Program-made: the position numbers and the translations under genes
DNA from: Hyphomicrobiales bacterium
GTDB taxonomy: Bacteria; Pseudomonadota; Alphaproteobacteria; Rhizobiales; Rhizobiaceae
Direction: 5' to 3'
Length of the DNA stretch: 64,000 nt
NCBI GenBank assembly: GCA_900473175.1
Contig: UCKM01000021.1
Span: 1 to 64,000 of the forward strand
The notes under the pieces: generated by a model
What the model saw: only the letters and a program-made list of their open reading frames with translations
Told to the model about the DNA's origin: nothing
The model's database searches: none
In this document: piece after piece, positions 47,393-63,652 of the stretch
Position numbering within the stretch: the stretch's first letter is position 1
Layout: each line of letters opens with the position of its first letter

Positions 47393-48241
47393 TTGGCGCC
47401 ACGTGCGAACTGGAAAGGTTATCTGAAGGTCGCGGAGCTTACCTGCCCCGTTGGCCTTTACACAGCCGCATCAACCTCTGACCGCATCGCTTTTCATACG
47501 ATCAACCGCGCCACGGGCCACCGCGTCCAGCGCCAGTTCATCGATGGCGATACCGGCAAGCCGGTCGAAAAGGAAGATCAGGTCAAGGGCTACGAGGTCG
47601 GCTCCAATGACTATATCATCCTGGAGCCCGATGAGGTGGCCGCAGCAATCCCGGAAAGTGACAAGACCCTTTCCGTTGACGCATTCATCTCCTATGACGA
47701 CCTCGACGATCTCTACTTCGACAAGCCCTATTATCTGACGCCGAGCGACAAGAATGGCCAGGAAGCCTTTGCACTGATCCGCGATGGGCTCAAAGCCAAG
47801 AACGTTGCGGCGCTGGCCCAGACGGTGCTTTTCCGGCGTGTCCGCACGCTCCTTATCCGTGCCGATGGTGCGGGCCTGACGGCAACAACCTTGAACTATG
47901 ATTATGCGGTGCGCTCCGCCAAGGATGCGTTCAGCGATATTCCCGAGATAAAGATCAAGGGAGAAATGCTTGAGCTTGCCAAGCACATTATTGAAACGAA
48001 GCAAGGCACGTTCAATCCGGCGGAATATACGGATCGCTACGAGGCGACACTGGCCGAATTGGTCAAGGCCAAGCTTGAAGGCAAGGCGATCCCCACGCGC
48101 AAGCCGCAGAAATCCGAAAAGGTCGTTGATCTGATGCAGGCCCTGCGCGAAAGCGCGGGCATGATGAAGAAGCAGCCCGCCACGAAGAAGGCCGCAACCG
48201 GAAAGGCCAAGGCCGAGCCTGCGCGCCGGAAAGCGAGTTAG
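47393..48241 (+). CDS. ku: non-homologous end-joining protein Ku (first copy)
   Basis: Ku binds DNA double-strand ends and recruits LigD. The 282-residue protein starts at a TTG (MAPRANWKGYLKV as translated) with GGAG seven bases upstream. The Ku core beta-barrel is recognisable (LKVAELTCPVGLY, RIAFHTINRATGHRVQRQFIDGDTGKPV, KGYEVGSNDYIILEPDE, LDDLYFDKPYYLTPSDKNG). The C-terminus is Lys/Ala-rich, a non-specific DNA-binding tail. ligD follows ten bases later. Confidence 0.95.
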   Translation: MAPRANWKGYLKVAELTCPVGLYTAASTSDRIAFHTINRATGHRVQRQFIDGDTGKPVEKEDQVKGYEVGSNDYIILEPDEVAAAIPESDKTLSVDAFISYDDLDDLYFDKPYYLTPSDKNGQEAFALIRDGLKAKNVAALAQTVLFRRVRTLLIRADGAGLTATTLNYDYAVRSAKDAFSDIPEIKIKGEMLELAKHIIETKQGTFNPAEYTDRYEATLAELVKAKLEGKAIPTRKPQKSEKVVDLMQALRESAGMMKKQPATKKAATGKAKAEPARRKAS

Positions 48242-48251
48242 GCCGTAATCG

Positions 48252-50801
48252 ATGGTTGCGCTCGAAACCTATCGGAAGAAACGCAATTTCAAGACGACAC
48301 CGGAGCCCAAGGGGCGCAAGGCCAGCAAAGCCGGCCACAGTTTTGTCGTCCAGAAGCATGATGCGACAAGGTTGCATTATGATTTTCGCCTTGAGATGGA
48401 CGGCGTTCTGAAAAGCTGGGCCGTTACGCGCGGTCCAAGCCTCGTTCCTGGCGAGAAGCGCCTCGCGGTTCACGTCGAAGACCACCCGCTCGAATATGGC
48501 GATTTCGAAGGCACGATCCCCAAAGGCGAATATGGCGGCGGAACCGTCATCGTTTGGGATCGGGGCACCTGGACACCTGTAGAGGATCCCGACCGCGGTT
48601 ACGCCAAGGGCCATCTGGAATTCGAGCTTCACGGCAGGAAGCTTTCCGGGCGATGGCATCTCGTCCGCATGCATGGCAGACCGCGCGAGAAGCGTGAGAA
48701 CTGGCTGCTGATCAAGGCCGAGGATGATGCCGCACGCACGCCCGGCGACGCCGACATTCTCGAAGAAATGCCAAAGTCGGCCAAGACGGGCCGCGACATT
48801 GCCGAGGTCGCGGGCGAGGAACCCGGATGGTCGTCGAAGACCGGCAAGATCGACAAGAGCCTCCCCAAGGCCAAGACGCCGAGGAAAAAGCCAGCCGCCA
48901 TTGCCGAGATTGAGACCCCGGATCCTTCCAGCATCAAGGGAACCAAAAAAACGCGCCTTCCTGTCTTTGTCGAGCCGGCCTTGGCTACGCTCGCAACCAA
49001 GCCGCCTGCCGGGGAGCGTTGGGTTCACGAAATAAAATTCGATGGCTACCGGCTGCAGGCCCGCATCGAGGCCGGACGCGTCAAGCTCCTCACCCGCAGC
49101 GGTCTCGACTGGACCAAGAAATTCGGCAAGGAGATCATCGCCGCGCTTCAGGAACTTGCAGTGGGCACGGCATTGATCGATGGCGAGCTGGTGGTAGAAC
49201 CGGCTGCCGGCGCCTCGGATTTTTCCGCCCTCCAGGCCGATCTCAGCAATGACCGGACAGATCGCTTCATCTTCTATGTCTTCGACCTTCTTTACCTCGA
49301 CGGCTACGACCTGCAGGCTTTACCGCTCCTCGAACGCAAGGCGATCCTGCAGAAGATCGCCGGAGACGGGACTGGCATGATCCGCTTCAGCGAGCATTTT
49401 GAAGGAGATGGCGCGATCGTGCTCGCCCATGCCTGCCGGCTCAGCCTCGAGGGAATCGTCTCGAAACTGCGTGATGCACCCTACCGTTCCGGCCGCGTCA
49501 AGAGCTGGGTCAAGGCGAAATGTTCCAAGAAGCAGGAGTTCGTCATTGCCGGTTACGTTCCGTCGACCACGTCGCGCAGGGCCATCGGCTCTTTGGTCAT
49601 GGGGGTCTACAACGGCAAGAAGCTCGAGCATGTCGGGCGGGTGGGCACCGGATATAGCACGTCGATGGCTGAGGAACTTTTTCGCAAGCTCGAGCGTATC
49701 CGCCAACCTGAAAGCCCCTTTGCCGAACGGCTTAGCGCAGACGCCGCAAGGCAGGTGCGCTACACCAAACCGCAACTCGTCGCCGAGGTGGAGTTCCGGA
49801 CCTGGACTGCCGACGGGAATCTGCGCCACGCGTCGTTCCGGGGCCTTCGTGAAGATAAGTCCCCACTCGACGTTGTCAGGGAAACGCCGCAATCGGCTGC
49901 CTTGCCGAAAACGCAGAGGTTTACCGTGAAACTCACCCATCCCGACCGCATCTATTGGCCCGAGCAGGGCGTCACCAAACAGGGGCTGGCCGACTATTAC
50001 ACCGATGTCTGGCCTTATATCGAGCCTTTTGTCGTCAATCGCCCGCTCGCCCTATTGCGCAGTCCAGAGGGCATCACCGGCCAATCCTTTTTCCAGAAGC
50101 ACGCCTGGAAGGGACTGAACTCGAATATCGGTCTCGTCAAGGACCCCAAGGACAAGGACGATGAACCGCTGATCTGCATAAAGGATCTCGACGGGCTGAT
50201 CGGGCTCGTGCAATCGGCAGTCCTGGAGATTCACCCTTGGGGCTCAACCGTCGCCGACTGGGAACATCCGGACATGATCATCATGGACCTTGATCCCGGC
50301 GATGGTGTGCCTTGGGAACAGGTGATCAGGGCGGCGGAGGAAACGCGCGAGCGGCTGGAGCAAACCGGTCTCAAGGCCTACCTCAAGACTTCGGGCGGCA
50401 AGGGCCTCCACATCGTCTCTCCGGTGAAACCGAAGGCCGCCTGGCCGGATGTAAAGGCGTTCACCAAGGCCATTGCCGATTCCATGGCGTTGGACAGCCC
50501 CGACCTTTACGTGTCGACCATTACCAAGTCGAAGCGCCACGGCAAGATCCTCATCGACTATCTGCGCAACCAACGCGGCACCACGGCCGTCGCGCCTTAC
50601 TCTACCCGGGCACGCCCGGGCGCGGCAGTGTCGATGCCGCTCGAATGGAGCGAACTTACGCCAGGGATAGGTCCCGCCTATTTCACCGTATTGAATGCGC
50701 CGATCCGCGTCGCCTCGTACAAGGCCGATCCATGGGCGGATTTTCGCGCCTCCGCCGTCCCCATCGAAAGACCGAAGGCGACGCGCAAGAAGAGCAGCTA
50801 G
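48252..50801 (+). CDS. ligD: ATP-dependent DNA ligase D (phosphoesterase-ligase-polymerase)
   Basis: Multidomain end-processing and ligating enzyme of bacterial NHEJ, 849 residues. Domain order is 3'-phosphoesterase (about 1-190: QKHDATRLHYDFRLEMDG, HVEDHPLEYGDFEGTIPKG), ligase (about 235-540) and polymerase/primase (about 560-840). The ligase has the AMP-binding Lys in EIKFDGYR, DGELVVEP, FYVFDLLYLDGYDL and VKSWVKAKC. The polymerase has HPDRIYWPEQGVTKQGLADYY and the metal pair MDLDPGDGV. This order is the Pseudomonas/Agrobacterium type. It is co-transcribed with ku and convergent with the second ku. Confidence 0.96.
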   Translation: MVALETYRKKRNFKTTPEPKGRKASKAGHSFVVQKHDATRLHYDFRLEMDGVLKSWAVTRGPSLVPGEKRLAVHVEDHPLEYGDFEGTIPKGEYGGGTVIVWDRGTWTPVEDPDRGYAKGHLEFELHGRKLSGRWHLVRMHGRPREKRENWLLIKAEDDAARTPGDADILEEMPKSAKTGRDIAEVAGEEPGWSSKTGKIDKSLPKAKTPRKKPAAIAEIETPDPSSIKGTKKTRLPVFVEPALATLATKPPAGERWVHEIKFDGYRLQARIEAGRVKLLTRSGLDWTKKFGKEIIAALQELAVGTALIDGELVVEPAAGASDFSALQADLSNDRTDRFIFYVFDLLYLDGYDLQALPLLERKAILQKIAGDGTGMIRFSEHFEGDGAIVLAHACRLSLEGIVSKLRDAPYRSGRVKSWVKAKCSKKQEFVIAGYVPSTTSRRAIGSLVMGVYNGKKLEHVGRVGTGYSTSMAEELFRKLERIRQPESPFAERLSADAARQVRYTKPQLVAEVEFRTWTADGNLRHASFRGLREDKSPLDVVRETPQSAALPKTQRFTVKLTHPDRIYWPEQGVTKQGLADYYTDVWPYIEPFVVNRPLALLRSPEGITGQSFFQKHAWKGLNSNIGLVKDPKDKDDEPLICIKDLDGLIGLVQSAVLEIHPWGSTVADWEHPDMIIMDLDPGDGVPWEQVIRAAEETRERLEQTGLKAYLKTSGGKGLHIVSPVKPKAAWPDVKAFTKAIADSMALDSPDLYVSTITKSKRHGKILIDYLRNQRGTTAVAPYSTRARPGAAVSMPLEWSELTPGIGPAYFTVLNAPIRVASYKADPWADFRASAVPIERPKATRKKSS

Positions 50802-50804
50802 TTC

Positions 50805-51611
50805 CTATTCCTTCTTCGGCTTGCTTTCGCTGGCAATGCTCTTGCGCAAAGCGTCCATGATGTTGATGACGTTACTGGGCTGCTCGGTCTCGCCTGCCTG
50901 TGGCTTGGCCGGGCGCTTCTTGCCCTTCTTCTTGGCCGCAATGATTTCGAGCAGCCGATCCTGGACAGGATCGTCTACCATCTTCGGGTCCCAGGGTTTG
51001 GTACGTTCGTCGATCAATGTCTTCACCAGCGCCATCAACTGCGCGTCGGTCTTCCCGGTTGGAATGTCGCCGAAATAGCCCTCGCGATCGCGCACCTCAT
51101 CGCCATAGCGTAGCGTCCACAGCACGATGCCGCGTCCGCGTGGCTCGAGCATCACCGCTCGCTCGCGCCGGTACATGACGAGGCGCGCGATACCGACCCT
51201 CCCCGTCGCTTCCATGCCGGCGCGGATCACCGAAAAGGCTTCCTCCCCGACGGGGTCGTCGGGGGTCAGATAATGGGGTTTGTCATACCAGATCCATTCG
51301 ATGCTTTCGCGGGGCACGAACATCTCAATATCGATCGTGCGCGTACTTTCCAGCGCCACCGCGTCGATTTCGTCATCCTCGAGCACGACGTATTCGTCCT
51401 CGCCGCGCTGATAACCTTTCACTTCATCGTCCTCGTCGACCGGCTTGCCGCTAACAGAGTCGATATACTGGCTGACCACGCGATTTCCGGTTTTCCGGTT
51501 GAGCGTATGAAACCTTATCTTCTCTTCATCGGTCGTCGCTGGCACCATCGCCACCGGGCAGGTGACGAGCGAAAGCTTGAGATAGCCTTTCCAGAATGAA
51601 CGTGGAGCCAT
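50805..51611 (-). CDS. ku: non-homologous end-joining protein Ku (second copy)
   Basis: A 268-residue Ku paralogue distinct from the first: MAPRSFWKGYLKLSLVTCPVAMVPA, KIRFHTLNRKTGNRVVSQYIDSVSGKPV, WIWYDKPHYLTPDDPVGEEAF. The C-terminus is shorter and ends ESKPKKE. It is encoded convergently with ligD, three bases apart, and has an excellent EcfG-type promoter. Multiple ku genes are known in rhizobia; the two proteins may form a heterodimer, which is inference. Confidence 0.95.
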   Translation of the reverse strand: MAPRSFWKGYLKLSLVTCPVAMVPATTDEEKIRFHTLNRKTGNRVVSQYIDSVSGKPVDEDDEVKGYQRGEDEYVVLEDDEIDAVALESTRTIDIEMFVPRESIEWIWYDKPHYLTPDDPVGEEAFSVIRAGMEATGRVGIARLVMYRRERAVMLEPRGRGIVLWTLRYGDEVRDREGYFGDIPTGKTDAQLMALVKTLIDERTKPWDPKMVDDPVQDRLLEIIAAKKKGKKRPAKPQAGETEQPSNVINIMDALRKSIASESKPKKE

Positions 51612-55446: not shown

Positions 55447-55687
55447 TTTCTTTTTTCGTGTGATCTCCGCCCGCTCGACTCATATCCTGAAACGGCCGTC
55501 CCGAGAAATAAAGCCTTTCTGAAGAAGCTGATGCCCGAACACGCAAAAATGGCGCTGACAAAACAATTCAATGCAACCGGAAGTGTTTAAGATAAATCAA
55601 GCATGTTGGTATTTATCGGTCGCTGCTCATAGATTGTTCATCTGATCCGGGTGATTCTGCGATCAGCAGGTTCTGGGGACAATGGAC

Positions 55688-56440
55688 ATGAAGACAATAA
55701 TTCTGGCGGCGGCGATTGTCGCCCTCGCAAGCGCGGCTTCGGCCGAGGAATTAAAACTGAGAGTTGCAACGGAAGGCGCCTATCCGCCCTTCAACTCAGT
55801 GGATGCTTCCGGAAACCTTGTCGGGTTCGATGTCGATATTGCCAAGGCGGTTTGCCAGGAAATGAAAGCCGAATGTTCATTCGTCGCTGTTCCGTGGAAT
55901 GACATCATCAACCGGCTGGAAAAGAACGACTACGACCTCATCGTCGCCAGCATGTCTTTCACCGAGGAACGCGCTACAAGGATGGAGTTCTCCACTTCCT
56001 ATTACCGGTCGCACTCGGCCTTCGCCGGCGATCCGAACAAGTTCAAGGACATATCTCCAGCAGCGCTGGCGGGCTTTCGCATCGCAGCAGGCAACCAGAC
56101 GATACAGTCGGAATATCTGCAGAAGGTCTACACGGACAGCAAGATCGTGCTGACGAAGGACGAGCCCGAAGCGCAGAAGCTGCTTCAATCGGGCGCTGTC
56201 GACCTGATCCTGGCGGATTCCATCGACCTGCTCACCTTTCTTCAGTCGCCGGAGAATTCGAAGTTCGACTATGTCGGCGACCCCGTAACCAACGGCTTTC
56301 TGAAAAGCTCGGCACACATAACTGCCCATAAGGGCAATACGGAACTGATCAGCAAAGTCAATATCGCGATCGACCGGATAAGGCTTAACGGCACCTATGA
56401 TCGCATCAACAACACCTATTTTCCCTTCAGCATCTACTAG
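55688..56440 (+). CDS. periplasmic amino-acid-type solute-binding protein without permease
   Basis: A 250-residue exported binding protein of the polar amino acid family (SBP_bac_3). It has a signal peptide (TIILAAAIVALASAASA) and the fold LRVATEGAYPPFNSVDASGNLVGFDVDIAKAV, with NDIINRLEKNDYDLIVASMSFTEER and the Asp/Arg region for alpha-amino and carboxylate groups. No permease or ATPase gene is nearby; instead a membrane diguanylate cyclase starts 14 bases later. This suggests a sensory receptor role. An ATG two codons upstream is an alternative start. The 55447-55687 gap holds the divergent promoters. Confidence 0.85.
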   Translation: MKTIILAAAIVALASAASAEELKLRVATEGAYPPFNSVDASGNLVGFDVDIAKAVCQEMKAECSFVAVPWNDIINRLEKNDYDLIVASMSFTEERATRMEFSTSYYRSHSAFAGDPNKFKDISPAALAGFRIAAGNQTIQSEYLQKVYTDSKIVLTKDEPEAQKLLQSGAVDLILADSIDLLTFLQSPENSKFDYVGDPVTNGFLKSSAHITAHKGNTELISKVNIAIDRIRLNGTYDRINNTYFPFSIY

Positions 56441-56454
56441 GTCTTAGACGGGAC

Positions 56455-57816
56455 ATGGCGGCACAAAAAAAAGGAATGCAGATATCGATGGCGGCGGCAG
56501 GCAGGCTGCTCATCGGATTCGTGCTTCTTTACGCGATCGTCGCCGCCGGATTTTCCATTGTGTTCCTGCGCAAGATCGAAAGCGACGCCCGCTATACGCA
56601 GGAGCAGCAGTTGCCGCTTGTGTTGAGCCAGAACCGCAATGCGATCAAGGTCGAGCGGCTGGCTTCTCTGGCCCGGTCGATCTATCTCGCCAGGGATCGC
56701 GAACTTGAACGCCAGCTGCAGTTGCAGACTCACGTGCTCGCGCAGAGTTTCACCCTCGACGAGAATGATGAACTGGCAATGGGCGTCCAGCAGGTGAGCG
56801 GGCACGTCAAGCAGATCGTCGCGATCCGGGACCAGATCCGCAAAATGGATTCCGGCGACGCGAGCCCCGATCCAGCCGTGCGCGCCAACCTGGAAAGGCA
56901 GGCGCTGGAAACCTATCAGAGCGCCATGCACGTCACCGACAAGCTCAGCCAGTCCATTGTCAGCGATGCAGCAGTGCTCGCCTACGGCATGTCCGGCGAC
57001 ATCCAGCGAACCGCCAAGATGATTCAGATCGCGTGGATCATCATCCTGATACTTCCCGTCGCAACGGCAATCGGCGCGATCTACGTCGTGGGCAGGCATA
57101 TTGTTGCGCCGATCAATTCGGCTATCGAAGGGCTCCGGTCTATCGATCGCTACGAAACACGCACTGTAAAGCTGCGCCGGCCGTTGTTCCGCGAATTGTC
57201 CACGATCTATAGGGCTATCGAGTCCTATGGACGGGTATCCAGCGATCTGTTGCGGGCAAATTCAATTCTCCAGGCCCTGTCGGAAGAAGATGGCTTGACG
57301 ACGCTTGCCAACCGCAGGAGCTTCGAGAAGCGCCTCGGCGATGAGTTTGCCAAGGCGACGCAAGGTGGAACCGACCTGGCGATCCTGATGGTCGACCTTG
57401 ACCATTTCAAATCAATCAATGACCGCTATGGCCACCAGATGGGCGACACGTGCCTCAAAATGACGGCGAACGTGCTGCGCAGCGTGGGTGCCGACCGCGA
57501 ATGTCATGCTGCGCGCTATGGCGGCGAAGAGTTTTCGATATTGTTCCCAGGGTGCAATCTCAAGGAGGCAATTGCCGAAGCGGAGAAGATCCGGTTGTCC
57601 ATCGCCAGCCTGCTCATCAAGACGGGCTACGACGAAGTTATCCGCATAACCGCAAGCGTCGGCGTCGCCACGGTCACCAGTGCAAAATTTGAAACCTCGG
57701 CCCAACTGCTCGAAAACGCCGATCGCGCGCTTTATCTTGCCAAGCACAGTGGACGAAACATCGTGAAATCACTCCCCTCTCAGGGACGAACAGATTTGAA
57801 ATCCATAACCGCCTGA
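56455..57816 (+). CDS. membrane diguanylate cyclase with periplasmic sensor
   Basis: A 453-residue protein with an N-terminal helix (about 15-38), a helical periplasmic domain of about 155 residues (four-helix-bundle type), a second helix (about 193-215), a HAMP-like link (VVGRHIVAPINSAIEGLRSID) and a C-terminal GGDEF domain with active RYGGEEF. No RxxD I-site is seen. It should make c-di-GMP in response to periplasmic input. The solute-binding protein upstream, 14 bases away, is the likely ligand receptor. The ynb-like genes follow 39 bases later on the same strand. Confidence 0.9.
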   Translation: MAAQKKGMQISMAAAGRLLIGFVLLYAIVAAGFSIVFLRKIESDARYTQEQQLPLVLSQNRNAIKVERLASLARSIYLARDRELERQLQLQTHVLAQSFTLDENDELAMGVQQVSGHVKQIVAIRDQIRKMDSGDASPDPAVRANLERQALETYQSAMHVTDKLSQSIVSDAAVLAYGMSGDIQRTAKMIQIAWIIILILPVATAIGAIYVVGRHIVAPINSAIEGLRSIDRYETRTVKLRRPLFRELSTIYRAIESYGRVSSDLLRANSILQALSEEDGLTTLANRRSFEKRLGDEFAKATQGGTDLAILMVDLDHFKSINDRYGHQMGDTCLKMTANVLRSVGADRECHAARYGGEEFSILFPGCNLKEAIAEAEKIRLSIASLLIKTGYDEVIRITASVGVATVTSAKFETSAQLLENADRALYLAKHSGRNIVKSLPSQGRTDLKSITA

Positions 57817-57855: not shown

Positions 57856-58473
57856 ATGCCAACGCTCTACTCGATCAAGCCTGCATTCCAGAACGTGCTG
57901 CGTCCACTCGTTGGCCGTCTTGTCAAACGCGGGGCGACGGCAAATCAGGTAACCATTGCCGCCCTGGTGATCTCGGTTGTTGCGGGCGCATTGATCGCGG
58001 CCTTTCCTGATCATGCTCGGCTTTTCTGGATACTTCCTTTGGTCCTGTTCGTCCGCATGGCGCTCAATGCCATCGACGGGATGATGGCCCGCGAATTCGG
58101 CCAGGCATCGAAACTGGGCGCCTACCTTAATGAACTTGGCGACGCGCTATCCGATATGGCACTCATCCTGCCGTTTGTCTTGGTCCCGCCATTTTCACCA
58201 CCCGGCGTCGTCGGCTTCGCCATAACCGCGCTAATGGCGGAATATGCCGGAGTCCTAGGTGTGATGGCCGGCGGCGGCAGAGGCTATGACGGTCCATTCG
58301 GCAAGAGCGACCGGGCCTTGGCGCTCGGTATTATCGCCGCGTTGATCGCAAGCGGCGTTGTCCTCCCCGCCTGGTTTGGCTGGGTCTTCCCGCTCATGGC
58401 GCTGCTCTCGGTCTACACCATTGCCAACCGCATCCGTGCCGGCCTGCGCCGGGCTGAAACGGTGGTTGCCTGA
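57856..58473 (+). CDS. ynbA: YnbA-like CDP-alcohol phosphatidyltransferase family protein
   Basis: A 205-residue inner-membrane protein of the CDP-alcohol phosphatidyltransferase family, which joins a CDP-activated lipid or alcohol to an alcohol. It starts MPTLYSIKPAFQNVL after GGGGGA. The signature is recognisable around ALNAIDGMMAREF and GAYLNELGDALSD, but the first and third metal Asp of D-x2-D-G-x2-A-R-x8-G-x3-D-x3-D are both Asn. Whether this is the rule in YnbA proteins should be checked. It heads the compact operon with hydrolase-methyltransferase, phosphatase, acyltransferase and cytidylyltransferase. Its substrate is unknown. Confidence 0.85.
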   Translation: MPTLYSIKPAFQNVLRPLVGRLVKRGATANQVTIAALVISVVAGALIAAFPDHARLFWILPLVLFVRMALNAIDGMMAREFGQASKLGAYLNELGDALSDMALILPFVLVPPFSPPGVVGFAITALMAEYAGVLGVMAGGGRGYDGPFGKSDRALALGIIAALIASGVVLPAWFGWVFPLMALLSVYTIANRIRAGLRRAETVVA

Positions 58474-58501
58474 ATGATCTTTGCGACCGGAGCAGACCAC
58501 A

Positions 58502-60280
58502 ATGCGCGCTGAACTCTCCCCCGATCCCTCAGCGTCCCGCACGGTCGAAGAGGCATTTTTCCGGACCCATGACGGGACGGAGCTTTTTTACCGCAAATGG
58601 CCGGCGCATTCCGGTGCGCCGAAAGGCGCAGTCGTGCTCTTGCACCGGGGCCACGAGCATGGCAGGCGCGTGGCGCATCTGGTCGATGAACTCGGTCTCG
58701 GCGACTTCGCGTTCTATGCATGGGACGCGCGCGGCCACGGCCGGTCCCCTGGCCCTCGCGGCTTTTCGCCATCCTTCGCTGCGTCGGTGCGGGACCTTGA
58801 CAGTTTCGTCCGGCATATCAGCGTTACGGATGGCATTGCCATCGAGGACGTGGCAGTCATTGCGCAATCGGTGGGCGCCGTTCTCGCCGCGACCTGGGTT
58901 CATGATTACGCGCCGCCGGTCCGGGCGCTGGTGCTCGCGTCGCCTGCCTTCAGCGTCAAGCTCTACGTTCCGTTCGCCCGGCAAGGCATCTCTCTCTGGC
59001 AACGGCTAAAGGGTCAGTTCTTCGTCAATTCCTATGTCAAGGCGAAATTCCTTACTCACGATCCTGAGCGGATCGCTTCCTTTGAACGCGACCCGCTGAT
59101 CACCCGCGCGATTGCCTCCAACATCCTGCTTGATCTCTACAATGCCGCCGAGCGTGTCGTGGCCGACGCCCGGGCGATCATCGTCCCGACGCAATTGCTG
59201 ATCTCCGGCAGCGACTGGGTCGTCCGCCATGCTCCGCAGCACCGATTCTACGAGAATCTCGCGCATCCTTTAAAGGAGCGGCATGTCCTCAAAGGTTTTT
59301 TCCACGACACGCTCGGCGAAAAGGATCGCGCAATCGCGATCGCTTACGCCCGCCGCTTCATCCTTGATCGCTTCGCAGCAGAACCGGCAAAATTGGACGT
59401 GACCGATGCGCATGCGACGGGTTTCACGCGCGACGAGCAGGACCGGTTGTCCTCGCCGCATGATCTGCTATCGGCGAGGGGGCTTTACTGGGCCGCCTAC
59501 CGGGCGTCCATTCGTTTTGCCGCACTGTCTTCGCTCGGATTGAAAACGGGTGTCCGAACCGGTTTCGATTCCGGCTCCACCCTCGACTACGTCTACGAGA
59601 ACGAGCCGCGCGGATTTGGACCGGTTGGCAGGTTGATCGACCGGCATTTCCTCGACGCGATCGGATGGCGGGGCATCCGCCAGCGCAAGCTTCATCTGCA
59701 GGAACTGATCGGGCTTGCACTCGCCCGCCTGCAGGAAAACGGCCGTTCGACACATATGCTCGATATTGCAGCGGGTCATGGCCGTTACGTGCTCGACGCC
59801 GTCGCCAGAGCAGAAGTGAAACCTGACAGCATCCGCATGCAGGACTATGTGCAGATTAACGTCGATGCCGGACGAAAACGCATTGCCGAGCGCGGCCTTG
59901 AAGACGTCGCGACTTTCCATCAGGCCGACGCCTTCGACGGTGACGGTCTGGCGGCAACCTCGCCCGCTCCGGACCTCGCCATCGTCTCCGGCCTCTATGA
60001 GCTGTTTCCCGACAACAGTTTGATCGAGCGTTCGCTCAATGGGCTGGCGAGAGCCATGCAGCCCGGAAGCCTCCTGATCTATACGAACCAGCCGTGGCAT
60101 CCGCAGCTCGAAATGATCGCGCGGGCACTCACTTCGCATCGGGGCGGGAAGGCGTGGGTCATGCGGCGGCGCACCCAGGCGGAAATGGACCAGCTGGTGG
60201 CGGCCGCGGGCTTTCACAAGATCGAGCAGCGCATCGATGAATGGGGCATCTTCACGGTTTCGCTCGCGGAACGGCTATGA
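58502..60280 (+). CDS. ynbC: YnbC-like alpha/beta hydrolase-methyltransferase fusion
   Basis: A 592-residue two-domain protein. The N-terminal alpha/beta hydrolase (about 1-300, monoacylglycerol-lipase or serine aminopeptidase type) has LLHRGHEHGRR, YAWDARGHGRSPG and the nucleophile elbow VIAQSVGAVLAATW (A-x-S-x-G), then Asp in LISGSDW and His in KGFFHDTLGE. The C-terminal SAM-dependent methyltransferase (about 380-592) has motif I HMLDIAAGHGRYV. The start at 58502 has GGAG ten bases upstream. The next gene overlaps by ATGA. A lipid or head-group substrate is inferred from the operon. Confidence 0.88.
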   Translation: MRAELSPDPSASRTVEEAFFRTHDGTELFYRKWPAHSGAPKGAVVLLHRGHEHGRRVAHLVDELGLGDFAFYAWDARGHGRSPGPRGFSPSFAASVRDLDSFVRHISVTDGIAIEDVAVIAQSVGAVLAATWVHDYAPPVRALVLASPAFSVKLYVPFARQGISLWQRLKGQFFVNSYVKAKFLTHDPERIASFERDPLITRAIASNILLDLYNAAERVVADARAIIVPTQLLISGSDWVVRHAPQHRFYENLAHPLKERHVLKGFFHDTLGEKDRAIAIAYARRFILDRFAAEPAKLDVTDAHATGFTRDEQDRLSSPHDLLSARGLYWAAYRASIRFAALSSLGLKTGVRTGFDSGSTLDYVYENEPRGFGPVGRLIDRHFLDAIGWRGIRQRKLHLQELIGLALARLQENGRSTHMLDIAAGHGRYVLDAVARAEVKPDSIRMQDYVQINVDAGRKRIAERGLEDVATFHQADAFDGDGLAATSPAPDLAIVSGLYELFPDNSLIERSLNGLARAMQPGSLLIYTNQPWHPQLEMIARALTSHRGGKAWVMRRRTQAEMDQLVAAAGFHKIEQRIDEWGIFTVSLAERL

Positions 60281-61617
60281 CTGCACCGAGCGCTACGCCG
60301 ATCGGACAATGGCGACTGAACCAGGTCGTGGCAAAGCGCGCCTTCCTCTGGCTGCTGATACTCGCCCCACTCTTCTACATCACTTATGGAGCAGCCAACT
60401 GGCTTGCCGCGCAGCGGACGAGCGTTCCCAACATCACTTTTGCTTGGGAACACGCCATTCCCTTCATGGCATGGACGATCTTTCCCTATTGGTCGATCAA
60501 TCTCTTCTACGGGCTCTCGCTTTTTCTCAATGAGAGCATTGCCGACGTCGATCGCCTGGCAAAGCGCTATCTGACGGCGCAGGTGATTGCGGTCCTCTGT
60601 TTCATCGCCTTTCCGCTCACTTTCATTTTCCAGAAACCACCGACGAGCGGCGCGTCCGGCTTTCTGTTCGACCTGCTCGGCGGCTTTGACAAGCCCTTCA
60701 ACCAGGCCCCTTCGCTGCACATAGCCCTGCTCGTCATTATCTGGGACCACTGGCGACCGCGCCTGTCAGGAGCGGTTCCGTGGATCTGGCACGTGTGGTG
60801 CCTGCTGATCGGCATTTCGGTACTCACAACCTATCAGCATCATTTCATCGACATCCCGACAGGCATATTGCTTGGCCTTTTTGCCCTGTGGCTGTTTCCG
60901 GCCGATGCGCCCTCCGCATTGGCGGGCTTTCGCATGACCGGCGACGCCAAGACCCGACGAATCGGCTGCTATTATGCTTTCGGCAGCATGGTTCTTCTCA
61001 TCCCCGTCGTGGCCGGAACGGCTTCATCCGCTTTGTTCCTGTTTCTGCTGTGGCCCTCGTTGGCGCTCGCCATCGTTGCGTCCGGCTATCTCGGGGCAGG
61101 TCCCGGCGTTTTTCAGAAGCGTCCGGATGGAACAGTGTCCTTTGCCAGCCTGTGGCTGCTTGCGCCCTATCGCCTCGGCGCGGTTGTCAACCGCTATTGG
61201 TGGACGCGCAAGCTCGTGCCCTCCGTTCTAATTTGCCGCGGGGTACACCTCGGCCGCTTTCCGAAACGGTCGGAGCTCCCGGCCTATGCTGCGGTCATCG
61301 ATCTCACCAGCGAGATGACAAGGCCCTTGGGCTGCGAGAATGACTGGCACGCCTTTCCGACCCTCGACCTCATTCCGGTTCCGCCGGGCAATCTTGAAAA
61401 GGCGGCCGAAGCCATCGAACATGCCCGCAGCAAAGGGCCGGTTCTTGTCTGCTGCGCACTCGGCTTCCAGCGCAGCGCGGCTGCGGTCGCGGTCTGGCTT
61501 TTGCGCTGTGGTCACGCAAACACTGCTACCTGCGCGATAGGCCTGATTGAATCCAAAGGCAGGCGGGTCCATTTGACAGAAGAGATGATTGCCACGGGAG
61601 AGAAAGCCGATGGATGA
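60277..61617 (+). CDS. ynbD: YnbD-like PAP2-dual-specificity phosphatase fusion
   Basis: A 446-residue membrane protein with a PAP2-type core of about six helices and a C-terminal cytoplasmic dual-specificity phosphatase domain. The PAP2 residues fit KPFNQAPSLHIALL (PSLH) and TTYQHHFIDIPTGILLG (H-x3-D). The phosphatase loop is CCALGFQRSA, which has the C-x5-R-S signature. The N-terminal helices come after MTAPSATPIGQWRLN. Two different phosphatase chemistries are therefore joined. The start overlaps the YnbC stop and the next gene overlaps its stop by eight bases. Confidence 0.88.
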   Translation: MTAPSATPIGQWRLNQVVAKRAFLWLLILAPLFYITYGAANWLAAQRTSVPNITFAWEHAIPFMAWTIFPYWSINLFYGLSLFLNESIADVDRLAKRYLTAQVIAVLCFIAFPLTFIFQKPPTSGASGFLFDLLGGFDKPFNQAPSLHIALLVIIWDHWRPRLSGAVPWIWHVWCLLIGISVLTTYQHHFIDIPTGILLGLFALWLFPADAPSALAGFRMTGDAKTRRIGCYYAFGSMVLLIPVVAGTASSALFLFLLWPSLALAIVASGYLGAGPGVFQKRPDGTVSFASLWLLAPYRLGAVVNRYWWTRKLVPSVLICRGVHLGRFPKRSELPAYAAVIDLTSEMTRPLGCENDWHAFPTLDLIPVPPGNLEKAAEAIEHARSKGPVLVCCALGFQRSAAAVAVWLLRCGHANTATCAIGLIESKGRRVHLTEEMIATGEKADG

Positions 61618-62032
61618 AGATGCAGGGACATTTGCCGCCCGGCTGACACGCAAGGCGCATACCTATGGCTTCCTGACTTGCCTGCTATTGGTCGCTTCCT
61701 CAATCGCCGGCGATGCCGGGGGCAAGCTTTTCGGCTGGCTCTGGCCGCTTTTCATTGTGGCCGGACTGGTCACGCTCTTCCTCGCCATCTATCTGCGTTT
61801 CGACGCGGCCCTCTTCCACTATATTGCCTCGCACGAGGACGTTTCCGACGGTTGCCGCGCAGCCGACAAGCTTCTTGAGCGCATGCACCTGCGCAAATGT
61901 CCCGAGGTCACACGCACGCTGCGCGCGCGTATTGCGGGCACCAACCGTCTGCTTATGAAGCTCCACCTTGCATTTGCAGGTTTTCTTGCTCTATTCGCCG
62001 CTGCGACGGCTTATGGATTGTGGATGACGTAA
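61610..62032 (+). CDS. small membrane protein of the ynb-like operon, unknown function
   Basis: A 140-residue protein starting MDEDAGTFAARLTRKAHTYG, with GAGAAAG upstream and an 8-base overlap with YnbD. Two N-terminal helices (about 18-55, with GDAGGKLFGWLWPLFIVAG) and one C-terminal helix (KLHLAFAGFLALFAAATAYG) flank a charged middle (HEDVSDGCRAADKLLERMHLRKCPE). I recognise no family and it is not part of the E. coli ynb set as I know it. Its place suggests a subunit or scaffold of the membrane complex. Confidence 0.65.
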   Translation: MDEDAGTFAARLTRKAHTYGFLTCLLLVASSIAGDAGGKLFGWLWPLFIVAGLVTLFLAIYLRFDAALFHYIASHEDVSDGCRAADKLLERMHLRKCPEVTRTLRARIAGTNRLLMKLHLAFAGFLALFAAATAYGLWMT

Positions 62033-62061
62033 CGCATTTCCAAAAGCATGGGGGAAACTCG

Positions 62062-62721
62062 ATGATCGACGCAAAACCCGTCATGCGACGGGGAGCCGCC
62101 ATGGTGCTTGCGGGATTGGCGCGCGCGATCACCGGCGTACGGCCGATCTGGCAAGGCAGCGCGCCGCAGGGCGGGCAGCGCATCTATTTCGCCAACCACG
62201 CCAGCCATGGCGATTTCATCCTGCTTTCAACCTGCTTGCCGCCGCAAGAGCGGGAGCGCACCCGCGCTGTCGCTGGCGCCGACTACTGGCGCAGGAATCG
62301 TATCCGCCATGTTCTCGCGCGCGATCTGCTCAATACGGTATTGGTCGAGCGCAACTGGATCGAACGGTCGCAGGATCCGATGGTCATCATGCTCGATGCG
62401 CTGAAGGACGGCCATTCGCTGATCATCTTTCCGGAAGGAACACGCAACATGACCGAGGAGCCGCTGCTGCGTTTCCGCTCCGGCATCTACAATCTTGCCC
62501 TCGCCCGGCCGGACGTCGAGCTCATCCCGTGCTGGATCGAGAACATGTCGCGCGTGCTGCCAAAAGGCGCGTTTCTGCCCGTGCCATTGCTATGCCGCGT
62601 CATCTTCGGTGCTCCGGTCGGCCTCGAACCGGATGAAGATCGCCACGCCTTCCTGGCGCGATCGCGCCAGGCCCTGCTTGATCTCAGTCCGGAACGGCAA
62701 AGAGAGCTCGATCATGGTTGA
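62062..62721 (+). CDS. PlsC-like lysophospholipid acyltransferase
   Basis: A 219-residue acyltransferase of the PlsC superfamily, which moves an acyl chain from acyl-CoA or acyl-ACP to a lysophospholipid. It starts MIDAKPVMRRGAAMVLAG after GGGGAAACTCG. Conserved boxes are H-x4-D in FANHASHGDF, the second box DLLNTVLVERNW, FPEGTRNMTEEP and ELIPCWIENMSRVLPKG. Its ATG comes 29 bases after the small membrane protein and its end overlaps the CdsA-like start by eight bases. Confidence 0.88.
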   Translation: MIDAKPVMRRGAAMVLAGLARAITGVRPIWQGSAPQGGQRIYFANHASHGDFILLSTCLPPQERERTRAVAGADYWRRNRIRHVLARDLLNTVLVERNWIERSQDPMVIMLDALKDGHSLIIFPEGTRNMTEEPLLRFRSGIYNLALARPDVELIPCWIENMSRVLPKGAFLPVPLLCRVIFGAPVGLEPDEDRHAFLARSRQALLDLSPERQRELDHG

Positions 62722-63652
62722 GACGGTGTGGCTGTTCCTCGGCCTCTTGGCCATACTCACTGCGGCGAGCGCGATCGCCACCATGCTCACCTGGAAAAAT
62801 ACGCGCAACGGCGACGTCCTGCCTGCCACACTCGCCAATCTCAATGCGCGCATCAAGGCCTGGTGGATCATGGTCGGCGCCATTTCCATTGCCTTTCTGT
62901 TCGGCAAGGGCGGCGTCATCTTGCTGTTCGCCTTCGTCTCCTTCGCGGCCCTGCGCGAATATGTGACACTCACCCACACGAGGCGCGGCGATCACTGGAT
63001 ACTGCTCGGCATGTTTCTCGTCATCATTCCGGTGCAATACTATCTGCTCTGGATCGAATGGTACGGGCTGTTTGCAATCTTCGTGCCGGTCTACTGTTTC
63101 CTCGCCATGCCCGCGCTCACCGCGATCTCCGGCGATACCGCCCGCTTTCTTGAGCGCGTCAGCGAGCAGCAATGGGGCATCATGCTTTCCGTCTATTGCC
63201 TCAGCCATGTGCCGGCCCTGCTGACACTGGCCATACCTGGCTTCGCCGGCAAGGGCTTGCTGCTCATTGCCTTCCTCATTGCCACCGTGCAGGGCAGCGA
63301 CGTCCTTCAATATGTATTCGGCAAGCTCCTCGGCCGGCATAAGGTGGCACCGAGAATATCCCCCTCGAAAACCTGGGAAGGGCTCATCGGCGGCATCGTC
63401 AGCGCCTCCCTGCTTGGCGCCGCGCTGTCCTGGCTGACACCGTTCACGCCTGTACAGGCGGGACCGATGGCAGGTTTCGCCTGCATCATGGGTTTCTTCG
63501 GCGGACTGGTCGCCTCGGCGATCAAGCGTGATCGCGGCGTCAAGGATTGGGGCCACATGATCGAGGGACATGGCGGCATGCTCGACCGGGCGGACAGCCT
63601 CGTCTTCGCCGCACCGGTCTTCTTTCACATGGTCCGCTATTTCTGGACCTGA
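62714..63652 (+). CDS. ynbB: YnbB-like phosphatidate cytidylyltransferase (CdsA family)
   Basis: A 312-residue polytopic membrane protein of the CdsA family, which makes CDP-diacylglycerol from phosphatidic acid and CTP. It starts MVETVWLFLGLLAIL. The C-terminal family signature is clear: SAIKRDRGVKDWGHMIEGHGGMLDRADSLVF, with the K-R, K-D and H-G-G-x-x-D-R residues. It differs from the housekeeping CdsA expected elsewhere. It closes the ynb-like operon, its stop immediately adjoining the converging FAH gene. Confidence 0.9.
   Translation: MVETVWLFLGLLAILTAASAIATMLTWKNTRNGDVLPATLANLNARIKAWWIMVGAISIAFLFGKGGVILLFAFVSFAALREYVTLTHTRRGDHWILLGMFLVIIPVQYYLLWIEWYGLFAIFVPVYCFLAMPALTAISGDTARFLERVSEQQWGIMLSVYCLSHVPALLTLAIPGFAGKGLLLIAFLIATVQGSDVLQYVFGKLLGRHKVAPRISPSKTWEGLIGGIVSASLLGAALSWLTPFTPVQAGPMAGFACIMGFFGGLVASAIKRDRGVKDWGHMIEGHGGMLDRADSLVFAAPVFFHMVRYFWT

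Follow-up and report, generated by a model that had tools for sequence, protein, structure and literature searches.

A stretch of 64,000 nucleotides from a Hyphomicrobiales genome of 4.88 Mb (GCA_900473175.1, contig UCKM01000021.1; hereafter the window) carries a compact operon of six plus-strand open reading frames (ORFs) at 57856-63652, which we designate A, C, D, S, P and B in the order in which they lie. Our preferred reading, held with modest confidence, is that this operon specifies a dedicated, non-housekeeping phospholipid pathway. What we observed is a conserved gene content, active-site-type residues that are invariant in C, D, P and B (19, 17, 17 and 16 sequences, respectively), P-B pairs that sit beside the CDP-alcohol transferase homologue YnbA or a sister protein, A2, and an altered metal site in YnbA itself.

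The six ORFs are tightly packed, with gaps of 28 and 29 bases at the A/C and S/P junctions and overlaps of 4, 8 and 8 bases at C/D, D/S and P/B (Table 1), in agreement with an earlier note, made from the sequence alone, that had reported six plus-strand genes with overlaps of 4-8 bases or gaps below 30. The enzyme identities that it proposed for A, C, P and B are supported by Pfam scores above the respective cut-offs. Its PAP2-dual-specificity phosphatase fusion in D, for which the Pfam scores lie below the cut-offs, is supported by invariant catalytic-type residues in 17/17 homologues and by a profile match to protein tyrosine and dual-specificity phosphatases (PTP/DSP). We also confirmed that A, C, D and B are counterparts of Escherichia coli YnbA, YnbC, YnbD and YnbB (46%, 57%, 40% and 40% identity), and that S merits its description as a new small membrane protein.

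Table 1. Genes of the operon in the window, and A2 genes at loci of relatives.
Gene	Predicted product	Position	Strand	Length (aa)	Remarks
A	ynbA-like CDP-alcohol transferase homologue	57856..58473	+	205	alternative in-frame ATG 57841
C	ynbC-like fusion	58502..60280	+	592	alpha/beta hydrolase and S-adenosylmethionine (SAM) methyltransferase; possible upstream TTG 58481
D	ynbD-like fusion	60277..61617	+	446	PAP2-type membrane domain, hydrophobic linker, dual-specificity-type phosphatase
S	small membrane protein, uncharacterised family	61610..62032	+	140	
P	PlsC-like acyltransferase	62062..62721	+	219	
B	CdsA/YnbB-like phosphatidate cytidylyltransferase	62714..63652	+	312	
A2	sister transferase	L169:3595-4395			adjoins P and B
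A2	sister transferase	L184:6897-7739			adjoins P and B
A2	sister transferase	L185:6184-6921			adjoins P and B
A2	sister transferase	L191:1378-2160			adjoins B
A2	sister transferase	L192:1459-2130			adjoins P and B
A2	sister transferase	L187-L190			

The YnbC methyltransferase family was found in 27 of 398 genomes in an even draw of the phylum, and in 8 of 20 genomes of the genus, the genome of the window being included in both counts. The earlier note had suggested asking whether P and S accompany ynbA-ynbC-ynbD, and they do: all six genes are present at 22 of the 26 other loci of the phylum draw, 21 of them in the window order A-C-D-S-P-B (one with a 2.3-kb insertion between C and D, and three with a weak extra match to P upstream). 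The remaining five loci comprise one with the six genes rearranged, two without P and B, one A-C-P-B and one A-C. We pooled the phylum draw with 80 named loci, ten loci of closer relatives and that of E. coli, all of them found through C; from these 117 loci, four duplicates were removed, and 12 of the resulting 113 had too little flank (beside C, they held A-D-S-P-B in six cases, A-D in four, and A-P-B and A-D-P-B in one each). Among the 101 distinct loci thus counted, 82 contain the complete set, in varying order and strand, while the other 19 consist of 12 A-C-D-S, three A-C-P-B lacking D, and single instances of A-B-C-D (E. coli), A-C, A-C-D-P-B and C-D.

The named loci are the best 80 of 568 confirmed relatives, with Rhizobiales over-represented, and their hosts include Rhizobium, Shinella, Mesorhizobium, Brucella/Ochrobactrum, Variovorax, Zoogloea and metagenome-assembled genomes (MAGs) of Acidobacteria. 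Chance clustering is excluded, since the six genes cluster again in named genera that we take to be alpha- and betaproteobacteria and in two Acidobacteria MAGs, and four of them do so in E. coli. Most often the genes occur as the full set of six and, given how many of the pooled loci carry it, the A-B-C-D locus of E. coli is a reduced version. The earlier note had regarded S and P as two added genes that made the system fuller than in E. coli; both are indeed absent from the E. coli locus, but the commoner form can hardly be called an addition.

Several individual copies depart from this pattern. Genome G446 has a gene for a WG-repeat protein of 717 residues inserted between C and D (L077:9708-11861), and in a plasmid copy from Rhizobium sp. 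RCAM05350 (L086) D, S, P and B are each split between frames, by decay or sequencing error. Relatives of ynbC lie on 29 of 72,556 plasmid records, 13 of them from Shinella, and the C gene of the operon is therefore also found on secondary replicons.

When relatives were searched with A, B and D in place of C, loci without C came into view. Six genus-mates carry S-P-B without A, C or D and a seventh carries A-S-P-B; three A-P-B loci and one A-B-P locus lack both C and D. In a Rhizobium-group genome (G101), the main locus is A-C-D-S, and a second place holds A2 followed by a P-B pair; G309 is arranged likewise, but its A2 is a remnant of 57 residues. A C gene with the methyltransferase alone accompanies A, B and P at one locus (L025, by Pfam), and a second (L026), whose A is split between two frames, resembles it by length. 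A2 is 20-25% identical to the window YnbA, has Asn at the same two metal-ligand positions (signature N-LLDGMVA[IV]E...N[ED]xPD) and adjoins P and B, or B, at five loci (Table 1); in the class draw it is rare, with matches in 2 of 142 genomes at E 1e-15. Since C and D are missing from A-P-B, A-S-P-B and A2-P-B loci, the part that recurs as a core is A (or A2) together with P and B, to which C, D and S are additions, and methylation and dephosphorylation by YnbD are optional and outside the core. A2 also stands alone at four loci of genus-mates that have S-P-B elsewhere (L187-L190), and one locus (L170) retains only a remnant of it.

Within this core, B and P would, judging by their families, supply CDP-diacylglycerol. 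B scores 228.3 bits against Pfam CTP_transf_1 (PF01148; cut-off 24) and matches the solved structure 4q2g by profile (E 3e-27), and its motif residues between S268 and D294, presumably the C-terminal signature of CdsA, are invariant in 16 sequences, although it lies below the cut-off of the equivalog PRK11624 (106.3 versus 385). A second CdsA-family gene is found elsewhere in the genome of the window (G000:C44), and B is an extra copy, as all 36 genomes with a ynbC-family locus contain at least two CdsA-family matches. P scores 63.9 bits against Pfam Acyltransferase (PF01553; cut-off 23) and falls below TIGR00530 (41.7 versus 102.95); its active-site-type motifs, which we take to be those named HX4D and EGTR, are intact, with their residues invariant in 17 sequences.

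For B there is also a published precedent. The accounts of E. coli YnbB, in the parts that concern us, describe CDP-diacylglycerol synthase activity in vitro and a role in the synthesis of the glycolipid membrane protein integrase (MPIase), whose level rises on YnbB overproduction, whereas YnbB cannot replace CdsA for bulk phospholipid (PMC6362211, PMC7018664). The view of the earlier note that the ynb genes have no established pathway thus needs correcting for YnbB; for YnbA, YnbC and YnbD we found no published function. On this basis the operon could be an MPIase back-up, in which B makes CDP-diacylglycerol for conversion to GlcNAc-PP-DAG (N-acetylglucosamine joined through pyrophosphate to diacylglycerol) and the remaining genes supply or tailor the glycolipid. 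We think this distinctly unlikely: in the same accounts the effect of a ynbB knockout is marginal or nil (PMC6362211, PMC7018664), and B is found repeatedly beside a CDP-alcohol transferase and a PlsC, no other listed flanking family holding a fixed place across taxa. The MPIase role of YnbB shows that B can make CDP-diacylglycerol; it leaves the company that B keeps with A and P unexplained.

The central enzyme of the preferred pathway, YnbA, belongs to a known fold with an unusual active site. The window protein scores 31.5 bits against Pfam CDP-OH_P_transf (PF01066; cut-off 22), and its structural model (predicted local distance difference test score, pLDDT, 90.7) is closest to phosphatidylinositol-phosphate (PIP) synthases and AF2299, with PgsA1 (6h5a) as the best Foldseek match (E 2e-4; query TM-score, TMq, 0.66) and with phosphatidylserine and phosphatidylglycerophosphate (PGP) synthases matching worse. 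PIP synthases are likewise its best profile matches. The signature, N71-x2-DG-x2-AR-x8-G-x3-N92-x3-D96, departs from that of canonical class I CDP-alcohol phosphotransferases, which we take to be D-x2-DG-x2-AR-x8-9-G-x3-D-x3-D: the second and fourth aspartates are kept, and the first and third (D1 and D3) are Asn. The earlier note passed over this substitution, which 111 of 112 YnbA sequences have; the exception is a truncated sequence that stops short of the last Asp. In a non-random control of 52 CDP-alcohol transferase loci (the 30 best matches, own PgsA included, 19 from the weak tail of 119, and three own-genome loci), 47 had Asp at both positions, four had Asp at D1 with D3 unresolved, and one had Asn at both; this last is a YnbA homologue beside a B gene. 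YnbA is therefore a divergent subfamily of the class I CDP-alcohol phosphotransferases and not a canonical member.

In a structural study of PIP synthases, signature aspartates 1-3 bind metal and the fourth probably serves as the base, while two arginines are considered to hold inositol phosphate by its phosphate group (PMC4634129). R153 and R192 of YnbA, invariant in alignments of 19 and 26 sequences, correspond in an alignment read by eye to R155 and R195 of the Mycobacterium tuberculosis (Mt) enzyme, and a YnbA-only profile gives the same match for R192. The retention of both phosphate-binding arginines suggests, by homology, that the acceptor would be phosphorylated. The reported contacts near the inositol ring are kept in neither alignment, Mt S132/K135 falling on E129/G132 in one and on G132/G135 in the YnbA-only profile; A2, unlike YnbA, has Arg at the position of Mt K135.

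These features bear on whether the operon belongs to an inositol lipid pathway in which YnbA would be a PIP synthase and YnbD the missing PIP phosphatase. PIP synthases are the nearest solved relatives, both arginines align with theirs in one alignment, the Arg of A2 fits, and the best NCBIfam match of three YnbA and three A2 proteins is to the inositol-phosphate class. All six nevertheless fall short of the cut-offs; for the window YnbA the shortfall is large against NF045883 (PIP synthase; 51.5 versus 170 bits) and NF040950 (archaetidylinositol phosphate synthase; 75.6 versus 180 bits), as it is against TIGR00560 (PGP synthase; 20.5 versus 109.1 bits). Inositol-phosphate synthase (PF07994) was detected in none of the 36 genomes with a ynbC-family locus, while the control matched in 5 of 14 genomes, three above the cut-off. 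Since these genomes lack that enzyme and the near-ring positions are not kept, inositol phosphate is an unlikely acceptor; we rejected an inositol lipid as the product, mainly on the 0/36 count, and regard such a pathway as very improbable.

The C protein joins two domains, scoring 222.7 bits against Hydrolase_4 (cut-off 27) and 480.8 bits against Methyltransf_20 (PF12147; cut-off 21). The hydrolase is monoglyceride-lipase-like, and S123, D238 and H268, presumably its catalytic triad, are invariant in 19 sequences; the methyltransferase gave weak, generic matches to solved structures (best E 5e-4), from which no substrate could be inferred. A monoglyceride-lipase-like domain and an acyltransferase in one operon would also suit lipid recycling, with deacylation by YnbC, reacylation by P, re-entry of phosphatidic acid through B and the PAP2 domain, and YnbA in a repair loop. 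That scheme seems improbable to us given the A-P-B, S-P-B and A2-P-B loci without C, and given L025 and L026, in which the methyltransferase appears without the hydrolase (by Pfam and by length, respectively), so that the lipase is not part of the core.

In D, the Pfam scores for DSPc (25.1; cut-off 33.5) and PAP2 (PF01569; 19.8 bits; cut-off 27.2) are both low. The DSP half has a Cys-x5-Arg-Ser loop and an upstream Asp (C393-x5-R399 and D364) in all 17 homologues and matches solved PTP/DSP phosphatases with a best E of 2e-12. The PAP2 half contains PSxH148 and HHxxD192, with H148, H188, H189 and D192 equally invariant; the C1 and C3 arginine motifs that we assume to be typical of PAP2 enzymes are not evident. 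Residues 229-415, the linker and DSP, match positions 6-203 of PRK12361, a model whose cut-off was exceeded in 1 of 60 genomes drawn. As a PRK12361-type protein (L161:1495-3156) fuses the same linker-DSP module to a diacylglycerol kinase domain, the comparison suggests that YnbD acts on lipid phosphates.

A phosphatase of this type raises the alternative of a redundant phosphatidylglycerol route, in which YnbA would use glycerol-3-phosphate to form PGP and the DSP of YnbD would release phosphatidylglycerol, much as PTPMT1 does in mitochondria. Glycerol-3-phosphate is universal, YnbD links phosphatase action to a transferase of the type that takes phosphorylated acceptors, and PTPMT1 (chain 3rgo) is among the profile matches of YnbD (E 4e-8), although other PTP/DSP chains match better; PTPMT1 is the mammalian PGP phosphatase, as the relevant part of one report states (PMC12136173). 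The match of YnbA to the pgsA model is nevertheless weak (E 5e-4 for the window and 3e-7 for E. coli YnbA), PGP synthase structures rank far below PIP synthases for the YnbA model, the genome encodes, at another place, a protein that exceeds the pgsA cut-off, and the methyltransferase is left unexplained. We consider this route unlikely.

The S protein is modelled as a helical membrane protein with three long helices and one short (mean pLDDT 90.6). No Pfam family was assigned to the window protein, five weak matches of one member each appeared among 16 members, and no fold in the Protein Data Bank (PDB) was matched at E 1e-3 or better. Across the 101 C-bearing loci, S and D are both present at 94 and both absent at four; D occurs without S at three, and S without D at none. 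This association was read from loci found through C only and was overturned by the wider search: the S-P-B and A-S-P-B loci of genus-mates lack D, and the idea of S as an obligate partner of YnbD was dropped.

Taken together, and reasoning from enzyme family throughout, the simplest pathway would run from PlsC through CdsA and YnbA to the DSP of YnbD, with optional trimming and methylation by YnbC. P would acylate lysophosphatidic acid, and B would activate the resulting phosphatidic acid with CTP, giving the operon its own pool of CDP-diacylglycerol. Judging by its fold, its nearest relatives and its two phosphate-binding arginines, YnbA would move the phosphatidyl group onto a phosphorylated small alcohol or sugar, X, with release of CMP, to yield phosphatidyl-X-phosphate, where X is probably not inositol. 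The DSP-type domain of YnbD would take the phosphate off X, as PTPMT1 does on phosphatidylglycerophosphate, and its PAP2 domain could act on a second lipid phosphate or transfer a head group. The YnbC methyltransferase may methylate the product or a precursor, and the lipase-like domain may remove an acyl chain. S, being small and helical, might act as a partner in the membrane, and its retention with P-B hints weakly at a scaffold for that end of the pathway. The earlier note had envisaged a lipid operon with acylation, CDP activation, alcohol transfer, dephosphorylation and methylation; the set is conserved as it supposed, but it is modular and the last two steps are optional, so that its interpretation appears right in direction and incomplete.

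We advance more tentatively, and at somewhat less than even confidence, a fuller proposal. In it, YnbA and A2 would together define a class of CDP-alcohol transferases that is so far undescribed and has Asn-Asp-Asn as its metal site, and each would work with a PlsC and a CdsA of its own. The product would carry a head group so far unreported from bacteria, made as phosphatidyl-X-phosphate, dephosphorylated by YnbD and methylated by YnbC, and a reduced form of the system would have gone unnoticed in E. coli K-12.

A number of observations weigh against a dedicated phospholipid pathway. With two of the three metal-ligand aspartates replaced by Asn, YnbA might be weak, might use metal differently or might do something else, and the YnbA-only profile places R153 one residue off Mt R155. 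The genus-mates that retain S-P-B without A indicate that P-B may have other uses; one of these genomes (G006) gave no match to A or A2 at E 1e-10, and another genome (G046) has A and P-B at separate places. In a genus-mate (G004), all that is left of S is a remnant of about 31 residues (L022:8390-8580), although the other five genes are there. Our literature search returned no reported product or activity for YnbA, YnbC, YnbD, P or S. According to the sections relevant here, E. coli YnbB fails to complement cdsA and its loss gives no lipid defect (PMC6362211, PMC7018664).

The closest known system is the ynbABCD locus of E. coli K-12 (b1408-b1411), whose four products are 40-57% identical to those of the window and whose YnbA shares the N-x2-DG...N signature, but which lacks S and P and has the order A-B-C-D; of 5426 complete E. 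coli genomes, 4242 contain 80% or more of this locus. PIP synthases (PgsA1, RsPIPS) and archaetidylinositol-phosphate synthase share with YnbA the fold, the best profile matches and the two arginines, and differ from it in D1 and D3, in the inositol-contact positions and in the absence of inositol-phosphate synthase from the 36 genomes. The PRK12361-type fusion, of which one member (L161) was scanned, resembles YnbD in its linker and DSP and has a lipid kinase in place of PAP2. The housekeeping PlsC-CdsA-PgsA pathway involves the same three reaction types as the operon, which comprises dedicated extra copies; besides the second CdsA, PgsA (by NCBIfam) and PssA (by length and motif only) are encoded elsewhere in the genome of the window. 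A four-gene Parabacteroides cluster for which an alternative lipid has been proposed encodes a nucleotidyltransferase, an alcohol dehydrogenase, a CDP-alcohol transferase and a lysophospholipid acyltransferase (PMC11300592). Compared by description only, it shares with the operon an extra CDP-alcohol transferase and acyltransferase and, as listed in that source, is without CdsA, YnbC, YnbD and S (PMC11300592).

Searches by gene, operon and domain names, in literature that included few subscription journals, returned no description of the operon or its product among the papers listed. What is new here is a conserved pathway of known enzyme families, lacking description in that literature, whose key enzyme is divergent. 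Although E. coli phospholipid synthesis is generally regarded as a solved subject, most complete genomes of the species hold a second, unexplained gene set of the CDP-diacylglycerol type, and if the operon does make a new lipid, the textbook E. coli membrane lacks a component. In YnbA, the altered metal site offers a natural test of how conserved aspartates are used in CDP-alcohol transferases, and the six-gene form is better to express than the four-gene form because it includes its own substrate supply.

Turning to the surroundings of the operon, PADLOC assigned none of the six proteins to phage defence, and no family among the largest flanking gene families listed holds a fixed place across taxa. 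Directly upstream of A, at 55682-57816, lie two genes, presumably for a periplasmic amino-acid-binding-like protein followed by a GGDEF protein, and the same pair precedes A at one other locus (L179). Downstream, from 63653 on, a minus-strand gene that we take to be fumarylacetoacetase-like (L006:6654-7913) converges on the operon; it is found at 7 of 8 operon-bearing loci of the genus and also adjoins all six S-P-B-only loci. Farther upstream in the window, at 47393-51611, a LigD-like gene lies between two Ku-like genes, a presumptive non-homologous end joining set.

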